The translations under genes were made by a program, and so were the position numbers. The notes beneath the pieces are model-generated. The model did no database searches, had not been told where the DNA came from, and worked only from the letters and a program-made list of their open reading frames with translations. Of a DNA stretch of 64,000 nucleotides, positions 6,831 through 37,305 are shown piece after piece (the first letter of the stretch is position 1; the number at the start of each line of letters is the position of its first letter). Origin of the DNA: Deltaproteobacteria bacterium (GTDB lineage: Bacteria > Desulfobacterota > Desulfobaccia > Desulfobaccales > Desulfobaccaceae); contig JAFDGA010000007.1 in NCBI GenBank assembly GCA_019309545.1, forward strand, positions 1 through 64,000, read 5' to 3'.

Positions 6831-7364
6831 TTAGGATTCAATCCCCTCCCGAGCGGGGATGCCGCGCTCGTAATAATGTTTCAGGTTCTTCATCTCGGTG
6901 ACCAGATCAGCGGCGGCAATAATCTCGGGAGGGGCATAGCGGCCGGTTAACACAATCTCCACTTGGGGAGGACGGGACTGAAGCAGGTCAAGCACCTCGG
7001 CCACTGAAAGCAGATTAAAATAAAGGGCGATGTTGATCTCGTCCAGGATGACCAGGTCATATTCTCCGCTCTGGATCGACTGTTGCGCCAGGGCCAGGGC
7101 TTCCTGGGCCTGAGCCACGTCCTGGGGGTCGGGATGATCTTTTCTGATAAAGCCACAGCGGCCGAAGTGGCGGATGGTAAACTCCGGGGCTAGCCGCAGC
7201 GCCGCCAATCGTTCCCCGCTTTCTTCCCCTTTTAAAAACTGAATCATTAAGACCTTGAATCCCCGGCCTACCGCCCGCAGCGCCAGTCCCAGGGCACAGG
7301 TGGTTTTGCCTTTGCCGTCCCCGGTGTAGACCTGGACCAGACCCTGGGTCAATTTTGGGGTCAT
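6831..7364 (-). CDS. cobO: Cob(I)yrinic acid a,c-diamide adenosyltransferase
   Basis: 177 residues from the ATG at 7364, chosen because AAGGAG lies just upstream; longer reading up to 7424 overlaps the preceding acyl-CoA dehydrogenase. An N-terminal P-loop GDGKGKTT and the downstream VILDEIN motif are those of the CobA/CobO/BtuR family, which transfers the 5'-deoxyadenosyl group of ATP to the cobalt of corrinoids. It works with cobU, cobT and cobS found at 10.7-13.5 kb to make adenosylcobalamin, the cofactor of the mutase at 26.9-29.1 kb. Confidence 0.95.
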   Translation of the reverse strand: MTPKLTQGLVQVYTGDGKGKTTCALGLALRAVGRGFKVLMIQFLKGEESGERLAALRLAPEFTIRHFGRCGFIRKDHPDPQDVAQAQEALALAQQSIQSGEYDLVILDEINIALYFNLLSVAEVLDLLQSRPPQVEIVLTGRYAPPEIIAAADLVTEMKNLKHYYERGIPAREGIES

Positions 7365-7420
7365 CGAGTTCTCCTTTCCGAATATTGGAGCAATTGAATT
7401 TTGAACCTCAAACCAGCCCC

Positions 7421-8572
7421 TCAAATTTTATCTCTAAACAGATTACGGGCAATAATTAACCGCATGATCTCGTTGGTGCCTTCATAGATCTGGGCGCCCT
7501 TGGCGTCCCGCAAGTGTCGCTCCATGGGGTAATCTTTCAGGTAGCCATACCCGCCCATGATCTGCACGCCCTCCACTGCGGCCCGCATGGCCACATCAGT
7601 GGCAAACAGCTTGGCCATGGCCGCCCCGGTATCGTAAGGCAGTCCTTGATCTTTGCGCCAGGCCGCTCTAAGGGTCAAGAGTTCCGCAGATTCCAACTCG
7701 GTGGCGATATCGGCCAGCTTCCACTGAATGGCCTGGAACTGGGCAATGGCTTGGCCGAACTGCTCCCGGCGGCGCGCATAGGCCAGCGCTTCCGTTAATA
7801 CTGCCCGCCCCAGCCCCACTGCCTGGGCTGCGGTGCCAATGCGGCCGTCATCCAGAGTTCGAAGCATCACCTTCAAACCCTGATTTTCACCACCGAGAAG
7901 ATTTGTTCCCGGAATGCGGACATTATCGAAAATTAAATCCACCGTGCCGGTGGCCCTAAGCCCCAATTTATCCTCCAAGGGTCCTACGGTAACTCCTGGG
8001 TTATCCTCCAAGTCCACAATAAAGGCGCTGATGCCTTTAGCCCCCAGCTCCGGTGCGGTACTGGCCGCCACCAGCCCGTAGCTGGCCACCTGGCCGCTGG
8101 TGACGAATTTCTTTTCGCCGGTGAGGATATAGTCCTGGCCCTGGCGGATGGCCGTGCATTGCAGCCGGCTCGGATCCGAGCCCGCTTCGGCCTCGGTGAG
8201 GGCAAAACAGGCCATTTTGTGGCCCTGAGCCACCGGGGGCAGATATTTCAGCTTCTGAGCCTCCGTCCCCCAACTATTTACTGTCCCGGCAAATAAGGTA
8301 TGATTGACATGCATAATCAAGGCACAGGAGGTACAGGCCTGAGCAATTTCCTTCACCGCCAGCACATAACTGACAAAATCTTTTCCGGCCCCGCCGTAGG
8401 CTTCCGGGAGGGCCAGTCCCATGAAGCCCAATTCCCCAAGGCCGGCCAGAATCTCCGCTGGATGCCGGCCCTGGCGATCTAATGCCGCGGCCTGGGGCTG
8501 GATCTTTTCCTGGGCGAATTGTCGGGCGCTGTCCTGGACCTGTTGTTGGGATGGGCTTAAAGTAAAATCCAT
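7421..8572 (-). CDS. Acyl-CoA dehydrogenase
   Basis: 383 residues, the usual length for the short/medium-chain family. N-terminal helical domain, middle beta domain (motif CFALTEAEAGSD), C-terminal helical domain with RREQFGQ and the catalytic base Glu364 in YEGTNE. FAD-dependent alpha,beta-dehydrogenation of an acyl-CoA, with electrons passed to electron-transfer flavoprotein; no etfAB is next to it. AAGGAG precedes the ATG. Ends 57 bp before cobO on the same strand. Chain length is not decidable; butyryl-CoA-like enzymes look most similar. Confidence 0.93.
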   Translation of the reverse strand: MDFTLSPSQQQVQDSARQFAQEKIQPQAAALDRQGRHPAEILAGLGELGFMGLALPEAYGGAGKDFVSYVLAVKEIAQACTSCALIMHVNHTLFAGTVNSWGTEAQKLKYLPPVAQGHKMACFALTEAEAGSDPSRLQCTAIRQGQDYILTGEKKFVTSGQVASYGLVAASTAPELGAKGISAFIVDLEDNPGVTVGPLEDKLGLRATGTVDLIFDNVRIPGTNLLGGENQGLKVMLRTLDDGRIGTAAQAVGLGRAVLTEALAYARRREQFGQAIAQFQAIQWKLADIATELESAELLTLRAAWRKDQGLPYDTGAAMAKLFATDVAMRAAVEGVQIMGGYGYLKDYPMERHLRDAKGAQIYEGTNEIMRLIIARNLFRDKI

Positions 8573-26907: not shown

Positions 26908-27312
26908 TTATTTTCTCTTGACATTTTCCCGGATAAAATTAACGATGTCGGTGGTTTTGGCGCCCGGACCGAAGATTTCGGCAATGCCCGCGGCCTTGAG
27001 GGCGGGGATATCCTCTTCCGGAATGATGCCGCCACCCAGGACCAGAATATCGTCAATGCCCTTGCTTTTCAAGATTTCAGTGACCCGGGGAAACAGATAA
27101 TCATGAGCCCCGGACAGGCAGCTCATGGCGATGACGTCGGCATCCTCCTGGATGGCGGCGCTGACGATCTGCTCCGGGGTCTGTCGCAGCCCGGTATAAA
27201 TTACTTCCATCCCGGCATCCCGCAGGGCGGCACAGATTACCTTAATGCCCCGATCATGGCCATCCAGGCCCGGCTTGGTGGTCAGCACCCGGATCTTTTT
27301 CTCTACCGGCAT
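26908..27312 (-). CDS. Methylmalonyl-CoA mutase, B12-binding subunit
   Basis: 134 residues forming a complete cobalamin-binding domain: DGHDRG (17-22) with His19 as the lower axial ligand, then the usual SCLSGAH and VLGGGIIP motifs. In this lineage the mutase is split, and this subunit pairs with the catalytic subunit encoded 77 bp upstream on the same strand. Together they interconvert methylmalonyl-CoA and succinyl-CoA. AAGGAG precedes the ATG. Confidence 0.94.
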
Positions 27313-27389
27313 GATTTTCTCCTTATTCTCTGAGTTTCATATAGCTCAGGTTGTAAAATAAGATTGATTGAGCTGAGATGTCGCTGGAC

Positions 27390-29066
27390 TCAGACAATCG
27401 GAGCAGCTTCATATTCTCCAAAAACCTCGCGCAAGACATTGCAAATCTCTCCTAAAGTGGCCAGAGATTTGACCGCCTGGAGGATGGGGGGCATGAGATT
27501 GGCCTCGGTCTGAGCCGCCTGCTTAACTTCCTGCAGGGCCTTAGTTACTGCCGCGGCATCCCGCTGGGATTTTAAAGTACTCAACCGGGCAATCTGTTTT
27601 TCCCGCACAGTGGGGTCCACCCGCAGCAGTTCCTTGGGCCGTTCCTCGGCCACCTGATACTTGTTGAGGCCGACAATAATTCGCTCCCCGGATTCGATCT
27701 CTTTCTGATAGCGGTAGGCGCTTTCCTGAATCTCTTTCTGAATATAGCCCTTTTCAATGGCCGCCACCGGGCCGCCCATTTTTTCAATGGTGTCGATGTA
27801 TTCCTGGGCCTTGGCCTCGATTTCGTCGGTAAGTTTTTCCACATAATAGGAACCGGCCAGGGGATCAACCGTATCGGTGACTCCGGTTTCATGGGCGATC
27901 AATTGCTGGGTGCGCAGCGCCACCTGGACGGCCAGCTCGGAAGGCAAAGCCAGAGCCTCATCCATGGAATTGGTATGCAGAGACTGGGTGCCGCCCAAAA
28001 CCGCGCTCATCGCCTGAAAGGCGACCCGGACAATGTTATTTAACGGCTGCTGTGCGGTCAGGGTGCAGCCCGCGGTCTGGGTATGGAACCGCAACATCAG
28101 CGAGCGGGGATTTTTGGCGCCAAAGCGCTCTTTCATAACCCGGGCCCAGAGACGCCGGGCCGCCCGGAACTTGGCCGCCTCCTCAAAAAAATCATTATGG
28201 GAGTTGAAGAAAAAGGACAGGCGGGGGCCGAACACATCCACATCCAACCCGGCCTGGATGGCGGCCTCGACATAGGCAAAGCCGTTGGCCAGGGTGAAGG
28301 CAACTTCCTGGACCGCGGTTGACCCGGCCTCGCGGATATGATAGCCGCTGATGCTGATACTGTTCCACTGGGGCACTTCCTGGGAACAATAGGCAAAGAT
28401 ATCGGTGATGATGCGCATCGACGGCCGGGGCGGAAAGATATAGGTGCCCCGCGAGGGATATTCCTTCAAGATGTCGTTCTGAATGGTGCCCCGCAGTTGA
28501 TCAAAAGGGATGCCCTGGTTCTCGGCCAGGGCCAGATACATGGCCATGAGGATGGCCGCCGGTGAATTGATGGTCATCGAGGTGCTGACCTTGTCTAGGG
28601 GGATACCCTGGAACAGGGTCTCCATATCCCAGAGGGAATCAATGGCCACCCCGACCTTGCCGACCTCTCCCTGGGCCAACTCGTGGTCCGAGTCATAGCC
28701 GATCTGAGTAGGCAGATCAAAGGCCACCGACAGCCCGGTCTGTCCGGCCTGCAGTAAATAATGATAGCGCTGGTTGGTCTCCTCCGCCGAGCCAAACCCG
28801 GCATACTGGCGCATGGTCCAGAAGCGGCCCCGATAGGCCGTCGGCTGCACCGCCCGGGTATAGGGATATTGCCCCGGCATCCCCAGCTTCTCCAGATAAT
28901 CATAATCCTCCAGGTCTAGCGGCGTATAGACCCGTTCCACCGGAATGCCCGAGGTATTGACAAACTCGGGTCTGCGCTCCGGCATCTTCTTCAGAGTCTT
29001 CTCCACCGCCTCCTGATATTTCTCCAGGGCGGCGCGGAGCTGCTCCAATTTCTGTTTATCAAACAT
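27390..29066 (-). CDS. Methylmalonyl-CoA mutase, catalytic (alpha/N-terminal) subunit
   Basis: 558 residues from the ATG at 29066, which has GGGAGG upstream; the longer frame to 29105 lacks support. It holds the TIM-barrel substrate domain only (motifs [37 protein letters not shown]) and lacks the B12 domain, which is the separate gene at 26908. Length equals the family norm for split mutases. It needs adenosylcobalamin, made by the cob genes at 6.8-13.5 kb. The GTPase chaperone MeaB/ArgK is not in the window. Confidence 0.95.
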
Positions 29067-29169
29067 CGGCTTTCCTCCCTCTCCCGGATGAGTGGCGCAA
29101 CTCATCCTGGTAAGTTACATATGCTAAATATGGATGGTTGAAAGTAGAAAGTAATTGTGCACTGACCAC

Positions 29170-29720
29170 CTAAAAATCATTCTCCAAAGATTTATTCCTA
29201 AGGACTACTTTATAGTCTCCTGTCTCCGTATCAAGTTGCAATATTTCCACATAGTTACCCGAGTCGTTTGCTACCGCCTCGAAAAGACCTATAATATACC
29301 CAAGCTCAATGTATTAGAGGGCCTTGTCCCTGGTTCGATCCGAAATGACTGGTAACCTTGAAAGACCGCCGGCTTCTCCAAAGGTAGGCGAGAATACGTA
29401 ACTGTGTCCAACTGGGTTGGAAATCCACTGAATAGATCGGATTTGATGGTTAGGCGTTCAAAATCATAAAGTTGATCAATATTGTGCCAGTTTAGATGAT
29501 TTACAGGTTCACCCCTCCAGGGAAAGGCAGTGGCCGGTATGGATCTCTTAACAACATCGATCGTGAGTTTCTTAGCCTCTAGCAGCTTGCGTATCGAATA
29601 GAAGCCGATCATCATATTCTGCTCCAGTTTCGCAAGGAACCGATCCGGCCAGCGCCGCTGATTGACTCTTTTCCTCAAGGCAGCGCCCTGCCTCACAAGT
29701 TCCCTCTTCCAGTAGGACAA
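29170..29720 (-). pseudogene. Decayed conserved hypothetical gene
   Basis: The first ~90 codons from 29720 read well (YWKRELVRQG, LEQNMMIGFYSIRKLLEAKK, HLNWHNIDQLYD). Near 29430 the sensible reading moves to another frame, which continues as GHSYVFSPTFGEAGGL, VISDRTRDKAL, an in-frame TAA, then YIELGYIIGLFEAV and ETGDYKVVLRN up to a stop at 29170. So at least one frameshift and one nonsense codon break a gene of about 180 codons. The type of protein is a small accessory-genome hypothetical with no known function. It lies between the mutase gene and the decarboxylase operon. Confidence 0.7.
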
Positions 29721-29749
29721 TTACCAGATCATATCTTCAGCCCGGTAGG

Positions 29750-29766
29750 GTGGGCACTGCCCACCT
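29750..29766. repeat. GGTGGGC...GCCCACC palindrome
   Basis: Seven-base perfect arms GGTGGGC and GCCCACC around a three-base centre, within GTAGGGTGGGCACTGCCCACC. Sequences of this look recur as dispersed intergenic repeats in many bacteria; only one copy was noticed here. Confidence 0.4.
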
Positions 29767-29823
29767 TATGGAGCGCATTCCTCATTTGAATAAACCTGTG
29801 GTGGTGATGCCTTCCTACGCTTG

Positions 29824-29858
29824 CTAACAACTAACAATTAACAATTAACAACTCATAA
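29824..29858. repeat. Heptanucleotide tandem repeat
   Basis: Five 7-base units in a row: CTAACAA twice, TTAACAA twice, then CTCATAA, ending one base before the stop codon of the OadB-like gene. The unit length of seven recalls short tandemly repeated heptamers described in other bacteria. Confidence 0.6.
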
Positions 29859-29859
29859 C

Positions 29860-30975
29860 TCAACCCCCGCATATGGCCCACAGGATACCGGCGGTCAGGG
29901 TGGAAGCGATCAGGCCGCCCAGATTGGAGGCCAGGGCGTGGATATACAGGTAATTATGGGGATCTTCCTGACGGCTGACTAAATGCACCATCTGGGCGGC
30001 ATCCGGGACCAGGCCCAATGCCGCGGCCCCGACCAAAGGGTTGATCTTTTGGTTGAGTATCAGATTAGCTAGTTTTACCGCCATAATACCGATAAGGGTG
30101 ACCAGCAGTAAGGCCGCCACTCCTAAGCCGATTATTTTAATAAAGGTCAATGATAACAATAGGCCGGCCTGACATCGGGTTCCCAGGTCAAAACTAAAGA
30201 GGACGATGACCACATCCAGCATACCCACCGCGATAGTGCGGGCCAGACGATCAGTAACGCCGGATTCTTTGATAATATTACCCAAGAAAAACAGACCGGT
30301 CAGGAGTATGGCGCGCGGGACCAACAGCCCGGTAATCAGCAGCCCGCCCACGGCAAAGCCCAGGCACTCACTTTTGGGCACTTTACGCATCGGCGGCATA
30401 TAGATCATCCGTTCGGCGGGAGTGGTCAGCAGGCGGATCAGGGCAGGTTGGACCAAGGGCAGAAATCCTATAGCCAGAAAGGCCAGCAATCCTAAAGGGC
30501 CTACCAGTTCCGTCGCCAGATGAGAGGCCAGGAAGACGGTGCTTATGGCTTCGCCCCCGCCGATGATGCTGATGGCTCCGGCTGTTGCCAGGTTAAATCC
30601 CCCCCCCCAGGCCAAGAGGAGGGTCAGAAAGATGCCCAAAGGAGCCACCAGGGCCAGGAATAACTGGCGGGGATGAGCGATTACACTGCTTAAATCGGCG
30701 TTGGCTCCCCAGCCCAAAAAGATCAGGGCCGGGTAGAGACCGTTATCGAGACCGGCATGGAGTATGTCCAGAAAAGGCTTGAGGTGGTATTTTAAGCCAG
30801 GGTCAGGGAGGTTGGCCAGGATCATCCCGGCAGTCAACGGCAGCAAAAATTGGGGTCGGAGACGTTGGGCAATAGCCAGATAGAACAACAACAGGGCTAA
30901 TAAGGTCATAAAAGCCGGGGCCAGAAGCGGGAAGCCCTGAGTTGCTGCTTCCGCTACCCCGGCGTGGGCCGCCAC
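29860..30975 (-). CDS. Na+-translocating decarboxylase beta subunit (OadB/MmdB-like)
   Basis: 371 residues, about nine to eleven hydrophobic segments, clear OadB/GcdB family. In characterised members this subunit decarboxylates carboxybiotin and pumps Na+ outwards. The FLGxGAxxD helix region and the C-terminal SNLGGLIASTLTAG (Asn and Ser of the ion path) are kept. The central motif, usually GGADGPT with the essential Asp203 (Klebsiella numbering), reads GGGEAIST: Asp to Glu, and Gly-Pro-Thr replaced. GTG start; 2 bp after the biotin carrier gene. Whether it still pumps Na+ is open. Confidence 0.9.
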   Translation of the reverse strand: MAAHAGVAEAATQGFPLLAPAFMTLLALLLFYLAIAQRLRPQFLLPLTAGMILANLPDPGLKYHLKPFLDILHAGLDNGLYPALIFLGWGANADLSSVIAHPRQLFLALVAPLGIFLTLLLAWGGGFNLATAGAISIIGGGEAISTVFLASHLATELVGPLGLLAFLAIGFLPLVQPALIRLLTTPAERMIYMPPMRKVPKSECLGFAVGGLLITGLLVPRAILLTGLFFLGNIIKESGVTDRLARTIAVGMLDVVIVLFSFDLGTRCQAGLLLSLTFIKIIGLGVAALLLVTLIGIMAVKLANLILNQKINPLVGAAALGLVPDAAQMVHLVSRQEDPHNYLYIHALASNLGGLIASTLTAGILWAICGG

Positions 30976-30977
30976 TC

Positions 30978-31454
30978 TCAGGCCTCCGCCACTACGACCA
31001 GAACTTCTCCGACCGAGACGCTGGCCCCTTTGTTCACCCGAACCTCGGTTACCGTTCCGGAAACTGAGGTCTTAAGATCATTTTCCATCTTCATTGCCTC
31101 CAGCTTGACCACTGTGTCGCCGCTTTTAACCTGGTCGCCGACCTGGACCAGGACATCCAGAATTAATCCCGGCATGGGGGCGACCACGGTCCCAAGCCCG
31201 ACGGGTTCGGCCATCACCATCGGCTTTTCGGGCGGCGGCGATGGCGTCGGAGTCGGAGTTACGGGCGGTGGTGAGGGGGTCGGTGAGGCCGGCCGGGGCG
31301 ACTCGGTCAGTCTGGGACTCGGCTGCCGGTCCCGAGGCCGGAATTGGGCATCATAGAGCACCCCGTTGACTTTAACCCGGGCACGGTCACCGGTTACCTC
31401 CAGAATCTCAATATCAAACTCTTCCAAGCCGATGGTGATGTGGAAATGGCGCAC
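30978..31454 (-). CDS. Biotin carrier protein (biotinyl domain)
   Basis: 158 residues. A short N-terminal domain (1-40), a long Pro/Ser/Thr-rich linker (~45-78) and a C-terminal biotinyl domain with Lys122 in EAMKM, the biotinylation site. It carries the carboxyl group between a carboxyltransferase and the membrane beta subunit. GTG start with GAGGT upstream. It lies between the OadG-like and OadB-like genes, so the three form a decarboxylase module; the carboxyltransferase subunit is not in the window. Confidence 0.93.
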   Translation of the reverse strand: MRHFHITIGLEEFDIEILEVTGDRARVKVNGVLYDAQFRPRDRQPSPRLTESPRPASPTPSPPPVTPTPTPSPPPEKPMVMAEPVGLGTVVAPMPGLILDVLVQVGDQVKSGDTVVKLEAMKMENDLKTSVSGTVTEVRVNKGASVSVGEVLVVVAEA

Positions 31455-31457
31455 GGG

Positions 31458-31874
31458 TTACCTCTTTCTAACTGTGAGGCGAGCATTCATGGCCTGCCAG
31501 CGTCCGGCCAGGGTCCAGGGGGAGCTGGGTCTGAGACCAGGTGGCTGTATTGGTTCCACGCCCGGAGAAGTTTCCAGATATAAGGATAAGGCCAGTCCGA
31601 CCGCAGCCACCGTTTTGGGATCGGTGAGCTCAGCCTGGCTTTCTTGATCCCAGGCCACGGTGCGCGGCGGTATGGGGACCTCCTCCCCTTTGACGGGCAT
31701 TAGCGCGGCAGACAAGGGTTCGGACTCTTCCGAGGCTTTCATGGGGGAGACTGCTCTTTCCCCCCGGTTAAGAAAGGTAGGGAGAAGATAGAGAAACAGG
31801 GCCAGCAGGCCGCCGACCAGCAATAAGACCGCCAGCCCGCCTATCAAGGTCCCGATGACTTCCCCGAAATACAT
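31458..31874 (-). CDS. OadG-like decarboxylase gamma subunit
   Basis: 138 residues with one N-terminal membrane helix (~7-30) and a hydrophilic, Pro-rich remainder. Short single-span proteins of this layout next to biotin carrier and OadB genes are decarboxylase gamma chains, which hold the complex together. Sequence conservation in the family is low; position is the main support. Ends 3 bp before the biotin carrier gene. It follows the Cache-tailed synthase gene by 91 bp. Confidence 0.72.
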   Translation of the reverse strand: MYFGEVIGTLIGGLAVLLLVGGLLALFLYLLPTFLNRGERAVSPMKASEESEPLSAALMPVKGEEVPIPPRTVAWDQESQAELTDPKTVAAVGLALSLYLETSPGVEPIQPPGLRPSSPWTLAGRWQAMNARLTVRKR

Positions 31875-31965: not shown

Positions 31966-33837
31966 CTAAAACTTCGTCTTAACCGGACTAGATTCCTTGG
32001 CATCAGCATCAAGCTCGCCATCCCGTTCCATTTTGGCCAGGGCCTCGAACCGGATGTCCATACCCAACACCCCCTGGATTTCATCATCATCATTGCGGAC
32101 GGGTACGCTCACGGTGATACATAAGGCCTTGGTAAAGAAAGATGTGTAGAAATCAGAGACATAGACCTTGCCAGACTTTAACGGCTCAATAAACCAGGGG
32201 CGATCCGAAAAATCCTCATCCAGCTTCATGGTCTCATACTTGGACCGGTCCACAATATGAGTAATATTCCGAGTAATCTTTTTGCCGTCCAGATTGGTGA
32301 CATACATGAATTGGATAAAGGGGTTGGCGTTCAACACCTCCTGCATTATGGGTTCCTGGGTGTTGGGAACCATGCTGCGGATTTCTTCCCGTTCGGCCAG
32401 ATCCTCGGCCAGGTGAGCGGCCACTTCGCGGGCCTTCTTCTTTAACAGATCGAATTCCGAGACAAACAACTCGGGGAGATGTTTACGGGCCAGGGTCTCC
32501 ATCTCATTGTTGGAAATGGAGGTCACCCGCCCTTCGTTATACATTTCAGTGATGCGATTCGAGATCTTGATGACCCCGGGATGACGCTTGTCGATAGCCT
32601 GATCACCGGTCAGCCCCAGGCGGCTATTGAGCCAATGGGCAATCCCGGCCCGACCGGTCTTGTCAGTGATAGTAATGGTGATCGGCCGCCTCAGGATCTT
32701 ATCAGTATCAAAAATATTGTAGATTTCCGGATTTTTCATCAGGCCGTCAGCGTGAATGCCGGCGCTGGTGGCATTGAAATCCTTGCCCACAAATGGATAG
32801 TTGGGAGGAATATGATAATGCAATTCCCGTTCGAAATACTCGGCGATGTCGGTGATCACCGTGGTATCGATGCCGTTGGTGTCCCCATGCAAGGCAATGT
32901 ATTCGATGATCAAGGCTTCGATGGGAGTATTACCGGTACGTTCGCCAAATCCCAGCAGCGAGCCGTTGACCGCGCCGCAGCCATACAGCCAGGCGGTGGT
33001 GGCATTAATAAAGACCTTGTGGAAGTCATTGTGGCCGTGCCATTCCAATAAATGGCTGGGGACCCCGGCATCCTCAACAAAGGCCCGGATCAACTTGGGA
33101 ACCCCCCGCGGCAGGGCGGCGCCGGGATAGGGGACGCCGTAACCCAAGGTATCGCAGAGCCGCAGCTTGATATCAATTCCTGATTCTTCCCGCAGTTTCA
33201 TCAATTCGATGGCAAAAGGGACACAGAAGCCGTAGATATCGGCTCGGGTGACGTCCTCCAGATGACAGCGGGGGATGATTCCCAGTTCCAGGGCAGCATT
33301 GACGATCCGCAGATAATTGTCAAAGGCGCGACGGCGATCCAGGTCCATCTTGTAAAAGATGTGATAATCCGAAGCCGAAGTCAGTATCCCGGTTTCTTTC
33401 AGGCCCATCTCCTTTACCAACGGCAGGTCCTCAGGTTTGGCCCTAATCCAGCCGGTGATCTCCGGATATTTATAATCCCGCCCCAGGCAACGCTCGACCG
33501 CCTCCTTGTCTTTTTTGCTGTATAGGAAGAACTCGCACTGCCGGATCACCCCACTTGGCCCCGACAGTTTATGTAACATATCGAAGATATCCACAATTTG
33601 CCGGACTGTATAGGGCGGCCGGGCCTGCTGCCCATCCCGAAAGGTGGTGTCGGTGATGACCATTTCTTCGGGGGGACAGGGCATGACAAATTTATAATCA
33701 AAGTCGATGCGGGCGATTTCGGTATAAGGAAAAACCCCGCGCATCAGGTTGGGACGATCGACTTCCTGGAGGCGATGCTGCCAGAAGCTGGTGTGTTCAT
33801 GATCGAGGAGCCGACGCTCTTTATTCCAACGGGCCAT
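31966..33837 (-). CDS. Re-citrate/homocitrate synthase-like enzyme with C-terminal Cache domain
   Basis: 623 residues from the ATG at 33837 (AGGAG eight bases upstream). Residues ~58-330 form a DRE-TIM metallolyase barrel: DTTFRDGQQ (63-71), LCDTLGYG (227-234), HGHND (267-271) and GERTGN (298-303), as in isopropylmalate, homocitrate and Re-citrate synthases, which condense acetyl-CoA with a 2-oxo acid. The sequence after RDGQQ (ARPPYTV) and the IRQCEFFLYS segment resemble Re-citrate synthases of anaerobes. It lacks the carboxyltransferase lysine motif. Residues ~485-605 look like a Cache/PDC sensor domain (DRPWFIEPL, YVSDFYTS, ITVSVPV, GVLGMDI), usually extracytoplasmic, yet there is no signal or membrane helix. 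It heads the operon with the decarboxylase subunits. Confidence 0.82.
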   Translation of the reverse strand: MARWNKERRLLDHEHTSFWQHRLQEVDRPNLMRGVFPYTEIARIDFDYKFVMPCPPEEMVITDTTFRDGQQARPPYTVRQIVDIFDMLHKLSGPSGVIRQCEFFLYSKKDKEAVERCLGRDYKYPEITGWIRAKPEDLPLVKEMGLKETGILTSASDYHIFYKMDLDRRRAFDNYLRIVNAALELGIIPRCHLEDVTRADIYGFCVPFAIELMKLREESGIDIKLRLCDTLGYGVPYPGAALPRGVPKLIRAFVEDAGVPSHLLEWHGHNDFHKVFINATTAWLYGCGAVNGSLLGFGERTGNTPIEALIIEYIALHGDTNGIDTTVITDIAEYFERELHYHIPPNYPFVGKDFNATSAGIHADGLMKNPEIYNIFDTDKILRRPITITITDKTGRAGIAHWLNSRLGLTGDQAIDKRHPGVIKISNRITEMYNEGRVTSISNNEMETLARKHLPELFVSEFDLLKKKAREVAAHLAEDLAEREEIRSMVPNTQEPIMQEVLNANPFIQFMYVTNLDGKKITRNITHIVDRSKYETMKLDEDFSDRPWFIEPLKSGKVYVSDFYTSFFTKALCITVSVPVRNDDDEIQGVLGMDIRFEALAKMERDGELDADAKESSPVKTKF

Positions 33838-34114
33838 TCTTAGACTCCTAATTATAAAAATTCCAGCAAAAGCTTGTTTTTGGGTATTGCAATAAGTAAA
33901 GCCAATTAACACCGGACCCTATCGATTAAGGCATCTTCTAGTAAAAAATTATTAGTACTATTGGCTACAGTTCAGATATTTTAATGAGCAAAATCTACCA
34001 TAGTTTTTAACCTTGTCAAGGCGGAGCTTGGCTGGAGAAAAACTGCCTTTCGCAAGTTGTAAAGCTGCGGCCAATTTTTTATCTCCATCTTAAATAGCCT
34101 TTTCCAGGCAAACG

Positions 34115-35896
34115 TTACCGATCGAGTCTTATCCCCAGCTCCAGGAGCTGGCCTAGATCTACCGGGGCCGGGGCCTGGGTCAGCGGACAAACCGCCTTCT
34201 GGGTTTTGGGAAAGGCGATCACTTCGCGGATAGATTTAGCTCCCGCCAGGATCATCACCAGCCGATCAAAACCAAAAGCCACACCCCCATGTGGCGGGGC
34301 GCCGTATTCCAGGGCCTCCAACAAAAAGCCGAAACGTTGCTGAGCCTCATCGGCCGGGATACCCAGAGTCGCCAGGATACGTTCCTGGAGATCGCGGCGA
34401 TGGATACGAATACTGCCGCCGCCGATCTCACAGCCGTTCAGGACCAGATCATAGGAGCGGGCCCGCACCGCCTCGGGATTGGTGTCCAACAGCTTTAAAT
34501 CTTCTTCCAAGGGCGCGGTGAACGGGTGGTGCACCGCCACATGCCTTTTTTCTTCATGGTCATATTCCAACAAGGGGAATTGGGTGACCCAGACAAAATC
34601 GTAGGTGTCGGGATGAATCAGCTTTTCTTTTTTCCCCAGATGCAGACGCAACTGGCCCAGAGCGGTGTTGACCACCGGGGGCAAATCGGCAACAAACATC
34701 AGCAGGTCACCGACGCCGGCATCCAGACGTTGGTTAAGCGCTTCTTGCTGACCGGAAGTGAAATATTTGGCCAGGGGCGATTGCCAGCCTGATTCGGTCA
34801 GCTTGATCCAGGCCAGTCCCTGAGCGCCGTAAATACCGACAAAATCGGTCAATTCATCCAATTCCTTTCGGGTTAAGCGGGCCAGACCGGGGCCCCGGAT
34901 GGCCTTGACAATCCCTCCTTGGGCCACCACCTCGGCAAACTGACGAAACTCGGCCTGCCCGACGATATCGGTAACCTCGGCCAGTTCCAGGCCAAACCGC
35001 CGATCCGGACTATCCACTCCGAAGCGATCGAGACATTCCTGACAGGTGAGGCGCGGGAAAGGCAATGACAGCTTTTTCCCCAACAATTCCTGGAAAAGAA
35101 CCGCCATCATCCCTTCCACCACCGCCATGATCTCCGCTTCTGAGACAAAGGACATCTCCAAGTCAATCTGAGTAAACTCTGGCTGGCGGTCAGCCCGTAA
35201 ATCTTCGTCTCGGAAACAACGGCAGATCTGATAATAACGATCGACCCCAGCCATCATCAGCAATTGTTTAAACAGCTGGGGGGATTGGGGTAGGGCAAAA
35301 AACCGCCCCGGGTTGGTGCGGCTGGGCACCAGATAATCCCGCGCCCCTTCCGGAGTGCTGCGAGTCAGGATCGGGGTCTCGACTTCGATAAAGCCTTGGT
35401 GGTTGAGATAATTGCGCACTATCTGGGCGGCTTCATGCCGGAGTAGCAAATTATGCATCAGGGTAGGACGGCGCAGATCCAGGTAACGGTAACGCAGGCG
35501 GATGGCTTCGGCAGTATCGGGCTTATAATTCTCCAGCTCAAAAGGCGGAGTTTTTGATAAATTGAGCAGCCGCAATTCCTCGACTGCCACTTCGATCTCT
35601 CCAGTTGGCAGATTGGGATTGGCCATCCCTTCCGGTCTCATAAAGACGAAGCCGCGCACGGCCAGGACAAATTCGTCCCGCAAGATATGGGCTTTTTGAT
35701 GAGCCTCGGAATTAACCTCGGGGTTGAAGACCACCTGGGTGATCCCTTCCCGGTCCCGTAAATCTACAAAGATCAATCCGCCATGATCACGTCGACGCAG
35801 CACCCAGCCCATCAAGACCACTTCCTGCCCAAAATTCTTGGCCCGTAAGGCCCCGCAGGAATGGGTGCGGGTTAAGCCCTGTAGAGAATCCAACAC
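34115..35896 (-). CDS. aspS: Aspartyl-tRNA synthetase
   Basis: 593 residues, bacterial type: N-terminal OB fold (1-105), class II core with the inserted GAD domain (~290-400), motif 2 [19 protein letters not shown] and motif 3 AFGFDRLVM. It starts 1 bp after hisS, so the two are one operon, a common arrangement. Whether it is discriminating or also charges tRNA-Asn is undecided, but the presence of asnS suggests direct charging. The 34-33.9 kb interval after it shows no terminator. Confidence 0.96.
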
Positions 35897-35897
35897 C

Positions 35898-37166
35898 TCA
35901 GGCTCCTTTCTTTAGGGCGACCTGGGTAGTCAATGTTGGGACCACGTCGTCCAATGAAATAATTTCCTGGTCACCACTCGCCATCTGACGCAGGGGGGCC
36001 TGCCCGGCTGCCAATTCGCGATCACCCAGAATCAACACATAATCGGCTTTGCGGCGATCCGCAATAGTCATCTGGGCCTTCAAAGAGCGATCCGTAAAGT
36101 CCATTTCTGCTGCCCATCCCAACTTCCGAAATTCCTGCAAGAGTTGAAATCCCCGGCTGCGGGCGGCCGCGCCCAGGGCGGCGATAAATAGTTGCGGGTG
36201 CGGTTCCGCAAAGCGACGAAAATCAGTTATTAACGCGGCCAGCCGTTCCTGACCAATGGCAAAGCCCAGGGCAGGCAGATCTGGTCCGCCTAAGGCCTTA
36301 ACCAGGCCGTTGTAACGCCCGCCGCCGGCAACGGCATCCTGGGCCCCCAACTGCGTGGTCAACACCTCGAAAGCGGTTCGGGTGTAATAATCCAGACCCC
36401 GCACCAACCGGGGGTTCATCTCAAAAGCGACTCCAAAGCTGTCCAGTAGCTCTAACACCCGGTCCAGATGCCCACGGCACTCCAGGCACAGATGTTCTAG
36501 CAGGATGGGGGCCGCGGTGACGATCTGCTGACAGGCCTTGGATTTGCAATCGAACACCCGCAAAGGATTGCTGCTCACCCGGCGTTGACAGTCAGGACAC
36601 AGTTCACCGGCCCGGTGGGCCAAAAAGGCGGTCAATTCCTCTTTAAAGCCCGGCCGACAGCCGGGGCAACCCAGGGAATTGACGACCAGACGGACCTGTC
36701 CGAGGCCAAATTTATCCAGCATATCCATCAACATCAGGATCAGCTCGGCATCCAACTCGGGGGCGTCTTCCCCAAAGGCCTCGCAATTGATCTGATGGAA
36801 CTGACGGTAGCGACCTTTCTGGGGCCGTTCGTAGCGAAACATCGGGCCGATGGTAAAATATTTTTTAACTCCAGCACCCTGATCAAGATGATTTTCAATA
36901 AAGGCCCGGACCACCGAAGCGGTGGCTTCCGGCCTCAAGGTGAGGGAATCCCCATGCCGATCCATAAAGGTATACATCTCTTTTTCCACAATATCAGTGG
37001 ACTCTCCGATGGAACGGGCAAAGAGTTCGGTCCGTTCCAGCAAAGGCAAGCGCAACTCCTGGAAGCCGTAGCACTGAAAAACCTGACGGGCCTGCTGTTC
37101 GATGGCGTACCAGCGGGCCGCCTCCGCAGGCAAAAGGTCCTTCATGCCCCGGACGGCCTTGATCAT
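35898..37166 (-). CDS. hisS: Histidyl-tRNA synthetase
   Basis: 422 residues from the ATG at 37166 with GAGGAG six bases upstream; the frame extends to 37193 without a ribosome site. Class II core with [11 protein letters not shown], the HisRS-specific [12 protein letters not shown] motif and GFAIGQERL, then a C-terminal anticodon-binding domain. First gene of the hisS-aspS operon. Confidence 0.96.
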
Positions 37167-37305
37167 CCCGGACTCCTCGAAAAGACTGTTCAAAATTTAT
37201 AAATTTAACAGCTTAAACGCATCACTGTCAACAATTTTGTGTTTTTGGTAACTTGTTGCTGGGAGAGAGACAGTTGTCGGCGGGTTGGTTAGGTCGGGGT
37301 AAGGG

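Follow-up and report, generated by a model that had tools for sequence, protein, structure and literature searches.

The window, by which we mean the whole stretch of 64,000 nucleotides that was analysed, contains a gene that fuses a Re-citrate-synthase-type barrel to a C-terminal Cache domain, a fusion that is real and conserved and apparently undescribed. The enzyme and the domain are each well known separately, and what is new is their fusion. Taken as a whole, the reading that we consider fairly probable is that of a Re-citrate synthase under feedback control by a carboxylate metabolite, at best guess an amino acid, bound in the Cache domain. The preliminary description of this DNA, which had proposed the architecture, had regarded its proposal as refuted should the architecture already be described as common; it does prove to be common in this branch, but a search of 5.39 million open-access papers found none describing a fusion of Re-citrate synthase with a Cache domain, nor any description of regulation of a Re-type citrate synthase. 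Automatic domain databases probably already list the architecture.

Citrate synthase is a main control point of central metabolism. If the Cache domain works as a sensor, anaerobes of about ten phyla would gate the oxidative branch by reading a metabolite, possibly a new way to control entry into the citric acid cycle, and would do so with a domain regarded as specialised for sensing outside the cell. For experiments this offers a convenient handle, a single soluble Cache domain whose pocket is predicted and whose output can be read as enzyme activity.

Gene and protein architecture

The open reading frame was found exactly where it had been placed by the preliminary description (Table 1). Whereas the listing of reading frames began this frame at an upstream GTG, we take the ATG at position 33837 as the start because a GGAG motif stands 8-11 bases upstream of it and because the N-terminus MA[RK]WN is conserved among relatives. 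Scans for promoters and terminators returned sites no more frequent than in shuffled sequence. The AlphaFold2 model of the whole protein is confident (mean pLDDT 88).

Table 1. Positions of the features discussed, in window coordinates
Feature	Position	Strand	Basis
Predicted Re-citrate synthase with C-terminal Cache domain, 623 aa + stop	31966..33837	-	ORF, Pfam, orthologs
Ribosome-binding site GGAG, upstream of the ATG	33845..33848	-	sequence
DRE-TIM metallolyase (HMGL-like) barrel, residues 60-333	32839..33660	-	Pfam, invariant columns, structure model
Post-barrel linker subdomains, about residues 356-445	32503..32772	-	Pfam, AlphaFold2 model
Long helix from enzyme part to Cache domain, residues 461-481	32395..32457	-	AlphaFold2 secondary structure
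Cache domain (dCache_1 / MCP-like_PDC_1), residues 475-601	32035..32415	-	Pfam, fold
Putative ligand pocket (R546, W548, F549, Y564, D594)	32056..32202	-	PctA alignment, conservation
Aspartyl-tRNA synthetase, conserved upstream neighbour, separate from the enzyme	34115..35896	-	domain and neighbour analysis

The HMGL-like match in the whole-protein Pfam search has an E-value of 4e-27, and the modelled barrel compares with homocitrate synthase 6ktq at Z 33.7, its structural neighbours being homocitrate synthase, methylthioalkylmalate synthase and LeuA (Z 32-34). R67-D68-G69 and H267-x-H269-N270-D271 within the barrel, as well as H362 and Y373 just past it, are invariant in 53 relatives. The protein therefore has the RDG and HxH motifs and the catalytic His and Tyr that a Re-citrate synthase requires, and it had been rightly said to carry all DRE-TIM metallolyase motifs. 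The linker gives a weak match to HCS_D2, the homocitrate-synthase post-barrel domain, at residues 356-404. LeuA_dimer has no Pfam match anywhere in the protein, which bears out the suggestion that the Cache domain stands in place of the leucine-binding regulatory domain. Weak Radical_SAM and UCH_C matches in a few relatives were discounted as chance or barrel cross-matches.

Evidence for a Re-citrate synthase

The genome, the gene neighbourhood and orthology together argue strongly that the barrel is a Re-citrate synthase, an activity that we regard as very probable, in keeping with the Re-citrate/homocitrate-synthase-like enzyme first proposed. The genome of origin (99% complete) has no Si-citrate synthase, while it has one or more aconitase-family genes and two genes of the Iso_dh family (isocitrate/isopropylmalate dehydrogenase). 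Across 99 related genomes, Si-citrate synthase is absent from 54 of the 62 that have a gene of the fusion family and present in 29 of the 37 that do not; Fisher's test gives p 6e-11 for this complementarity, and 9e-8 without the order of the source organism, for genomes that are not independent of one another. The two enzymes occur together in 8/62 genomes. Within one family, a genus that lacks the gene carries Si-citrate synthase instead in the one genome examined (G093). Many loci have the gene at the head of a series encoding aconitase-family subunits and NADP-isocitrate dehydrogenase; such clusters occur in Cache-bearing Syntrophorhabdus and Elusimicrobia and in barrel-only Lachnospiraceae, and in Brocadiales members the gene of a succinate-CoA ligase (SucC) adjoins. 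It is because of this genome and gene-neighbourhood evidence that Re-citrate synthase is favoured over homocitrate synthase.

Some further observations concern the close relatives and the surroundings of the gene. Three close relatives of the source genome (G003, G005 and G006) have both this enzyme and Si-citrate synthase, and a fourth, G004, which we take to be probably Desulfobacca acetoxidans, is without Si-citrate synthase, as is the genus of the source organism itself. Of the two Iso_dh-family genes, one is found on the same contig (G000 contig C7, 77782-78915), about 14 kb beyond the window. Upstream, the gene order HisS-AspS-ReCS (window 34115-37193) recurs in Syntrophus aciditrophicus, and about 50 of the 110 loci examined have AspS close to the gene, for no obvious reason. 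Downstream, and beginning 92 bases past the Re-citrate synthase gene, a set of genes on the same strand (window 26908-31874) is a methylmalonyl-CoA decarboxylation set: it comprises a 138-aa protein without Pfam match, a biotin carrier, the beta subunit of a Na+ pump of the oxaloacetate-decarboxylase type, and methylmalonyl-CoA mutase with its B12 domain. A 143-aa ORF (29289-29720), likewise without Pfam match, separates the Na+ pump from the mutase.

Distribution of the fusion and of barrel-only forms

Orthologs are present in 62 of the 99 related genomes and in 196 of 394 genomes drawn from the same phylum; scanning GTDB species yielded 80 named loci. About ten phyla contain the fusion, full fusions being found in Thermodesulfobacteriota, Nitrospirota, Omnitrophota, Elusimicrobiota, Spirochaetota, Lentisphaerota, Fibrobacterota, Margulisiibacteriota, Auribacterota and others. 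No relatives were found in viral contigs. One copy (L125) comes from a MAG labelled Betaproteobacteria and groups inside Desulfovibrionaceae, the bin being probably mislabelled.

Other relatives, of about 455-476 residues, stop after the linker and lack a Cache domain. They occur in Brocadiales and other Planctomycetota, in some Bacillota including one Lachnospiraceae genome, in Firestonebacteria, in one Auribacterota genome and in two genomes of the source organism's own phylum. Since such barrel-only relatives exist, the Cache domain is dispensable for catalysis. Flanks of up to about 6 kb around barrel-only members contained no separate Cache gene, only matches of 12-16 bits inside two of the barrel proteins themselves, presumably in the linker. 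On barrel trees, whose deep branches are poorly supported, presence and absence of the domain correspond to 3 or 4 changes, and a quick and a careful tree disagree on whether the barrel-only forms are basal; with low deep support and disagreeing trees, gain and loss of the Cache domain are indistinguishable.

A Cache domain predicted to be cytosolic

The Cache domain itself is real beyond reasonable doubt. In the whole-protein Pfam search, both dCache_1 (residues 475-600, E 1e-15; 58.4 bits, cut-off 45) and MCP-like_PDC_1 (residues 496-601, E 2e-15, 57.8 bits against 27) were above their cut-offs, and the residue ranges and motifs quoted for the domain are correct. As dCache_1 is covered in its first half only (31-155 of 240), the domain is a single Cache module. 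The proposed AlphaFold comparison likewise confirmed a Cache fold: residues 441-623 (mean pLDDT 86) form a long N-terminal helix and a PAS-like sheet. In the model of the whole protein, a helix of 21 residues joins the Cache domain to the enzyme part. The best Foldseek matches of this tail are the Cache sensors KinD, the closest, Tlp3 and YkuI (E 1e-7 to 3e-9); VIA-align gives Z 14-16 against WalK, KinD and CitA, and the carboxylate sensors CitA and DctB are among the structural matches. A chance match or a misassembly was considered and rejected, as the fusion is found in complete chromosomes and in 53/53 aligned relatives, every one of which gives Pfam matches to HMGL-like and to the two Cache models.

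The fusion protein is cytosolic by prediction. No signal peptide or membrane helix was found in its 623 residues, as had been noted in the preliminary description, nor any N-terminal hydrophobic stretch, and the maximum 19-residue mean hydropathy of 1.07 is too low for a membrane helix. In this the protein departs from the usual, although not obligatory, siting of Cache domains outside the cytoplasm between membrane helices. According to the 2016 survey, the superfamily is principally extracellular, with two small intracellular families, and the outputs are signalling domains (PMC4822843); YkuI_C is an accepted intracellular precedent. A later paper describes use of a dCache domain inside the cell as rare (PMC10104139). 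In the same phylum, five chemoreceptor-like proteins (L056, at 6952-8541, and L180, L181, L182 and L183) look soluble. They combine an MCP signal domain with a C-terminal Cache domain and show no clear membrane helix, and within the genomes searched their Cache domains are the nearest non-enzyme relatives, that of L056 at 31% identity. This suggests that Cache domains of this type work in the cytosol elsewhere, and a soluble chemoreceptor-like Cache may have been the source of the enzyme's domain.

The putative ligand pocket

Residues R546, W548, F549, Y564 and D594 align with R126, W128, Y129, Y144 and D173 of PctA. In the pocket region W548, F549, S566, L572 and D594 are each conserved in 53/53 sequences, R546 is kept in 48/53, with Lys or His in its place in several Lentisphaerota and Spirochaetota members, and position 564 is Tyr or Phe in 51/53. 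The counterpart of PctA Y129 is a Phe, and that of PctA Y121 is variable among the 53 sequences, being Glu541 in the window protein, so that the universal amino-acid motif (PctA Y121, R126, W128, Y129, Y144, D173) is present in part, with R, W, Y and D kept. In PctA the carboxylate of the ligand is bound by R126, while D173 belongs to the key residues of the amino-acid motif and, in amine receptors, makes contact with amines too (PMC10104139). KinD, whose structure was solved with pyruvate, has Arg131 at the position of R546 and no Asp at that of D594.

From the conserved Arg and Trp and the likeness to KinD, a cytosolic carboxylate is a likely ligand. Among carboxylates the invariance of Asp594 favours an amino acid, since the predicted pocket keeps both the carboxylate-side Arg and Trp and the amine-side Asp of amino-acid receptors; a plain small carboxylate, as first proposed, would fit somewhat less well. 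An amino acid is nevertheless only a tentative assignment, to which we give rather less than an even chance. Glutamate would be a natural feedback signal because it is the end product of the pathway.

Proposed mechanism and alternative explanations

In the mechanism that we propose, the cell's citrate synthase would be a Re enzyme, in which a metal-dependent DRE-TIM barrel converts acetyl-CoA and oxaloacetate to citrate, which would pass through aconitase and isocitrate dehydrogenase to 2-oxoglutarate and glutamate synthesis. A cytosolic single Cache module would occupy the position of the leucine-binding domain of isopropylmalate synthase and bind a small cytosolic carboxylate metabolite (the best guess is an amino acid, for example glutamate), with Arg546 and Trp548 holding the carboxylate and Asp594 the amine. 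Helix 461-481 and the linker subdomains could then transmit the effect of binding to the active site, so that the enzyme would be under feedback control. Judged from sequence and modelled structure, the Cache domain probably does sense a ligand and regulate the enzyme. The more specific proposition, that a receptor-type Cache domain was relocated to the cytosol to become the allosteric domain of a central-metabolism enzyme and that the Re-citrate synthase of many anaerobes is under amino-acid feedback through a chemoreceptor-type pocket, would be an undescribed mode of regulation and is possible, if somewhat short of an even chance.

Two other explanations concern what the Cache domain does. 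It might regulate the enzyme in response to a 2-oxo acid or carboxylate such as pyruvate, 2-oxoglutarate or citrate, rather than an amino acid; pyruvate-bound KinD, with R131 at the R546 position, is the closest Foldseek match, and CitA and DctB match as well, but the invariant D594 occupies the position of PctA D173, where KinD has no Asp, and we hold this alternative to be unlikely. Slightly less likely still is a ligand-free Cache domain serving only assembly or stability through dimer or tetramer contacts. Cache and PAS domains do dimerise frequently, barrel-only relatives exist and there is no known effector; such a role alone, however, does not predict pocket residues that are among the most conserved of the domain across about ten phyla (W548, F549 and D594 in every sequence and R546 in nearly all), and is disfavoured for that reason.

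With regard to the barrel, the best NCBIfam scores go to homocitrate and isopropylmalate models, and homocitrate synthase and LeuA are among its structural neighbours, as would be expected of a homocitrate, isopropylmalate or citramalate synthase. All of these scores, however, are far below cut-off (132 against 485 bits at best; 130 against 463 and 106 against 414 bits for the homocitrate synthase NifV/LysS equivalogs; the LeuA equivalog similarly), LeuA and CimA-like proteins are encoded separately from the fusion gene in the same genome, and the complementarity with Si-citrate synthase and the clusters with aconitase and NADP-isocitrate dehydrogenase also speak against such an activity, which is very improbable.

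Comparison with known systems

The closest comparison is with Syntrophus aciditrophicus. The genome that we take to be almost certainly that of strain SB (G451) has no Si-citrate synthase and exactly one gene of the present kind, in the same HisS-AspS-ReCS order as in the window, whose product is 63% identical to the window protein over residues 1-603, Cache domain included. The predicted mass of this ortholog is 71.8 kDa, and the enzyme subunit of Kim et al. 2013 is said to be of about 72 kDa. Going by a passage in a later paper, the Re-citrate synthase of S. aciditrophicus was purified and characterised (Kim et al. 2013, cited in PMC12016533). If the genome is correctly identified, this Cache domain, of which no mention was found in the open-access literature, is already present in the characterised enzyme. 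That enzyme resembles the window protein in barrel, linker, Cache domain and gene order, the difference being that its activity has been measured whereas the window enzyme is known from sequence.

The Re-citrate synthase of Clostridium kluyveri, reportedly the subject of Li et al. 2007, and the candidate of Kuenenia stuttgartiensis belong to the same barrel family as the window protein. The Kuenenia candidate shares 55% identity with the enzyme of C. kluyveri and has a succinate-CoA ligase gene adjoining (PMC8027424). The Brocadiales relatives, about 60% identical to the window barrel, have SucC adjoining as in Kuenenia; they and the Bacillota and Lachnospiraceae relatives end after the linker, whereas the window protein continues into a Cache domain. 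LeuA (2-isopropylmalate synthase) is subject to leucine feedback through its C-terminal leucine-binding domain. It is built like the window protein, with a DRE-TIM barrel, linker subdomains and a C-terminal domain of the small-molecule type, but this is LeuA_dimer in LeuA and a Cache domain in the window protein.

On the sensor side, PctA, Tlp3 and KinD resemble the window Cache domain in fold and in the majority of pocket positions (R-x-W-F/Y, Tyr, Asp), but theirs are extracytoplasmic and part of membrane receptors, while that of the window protein is cytosolic by prediction and does not keep the Tyr of the Tyr121 position. In YkuI, an EAL protein with the Cache-like YkuI_C at its C-terminus, and in the five chemoreceptor-like proteins, the Cache domain is placed C-terminally to a cytosolic effector just as in the window protein; the effector in all of these is a signalling domain, whereas in the window protein it is an enzyme of central metabolism.
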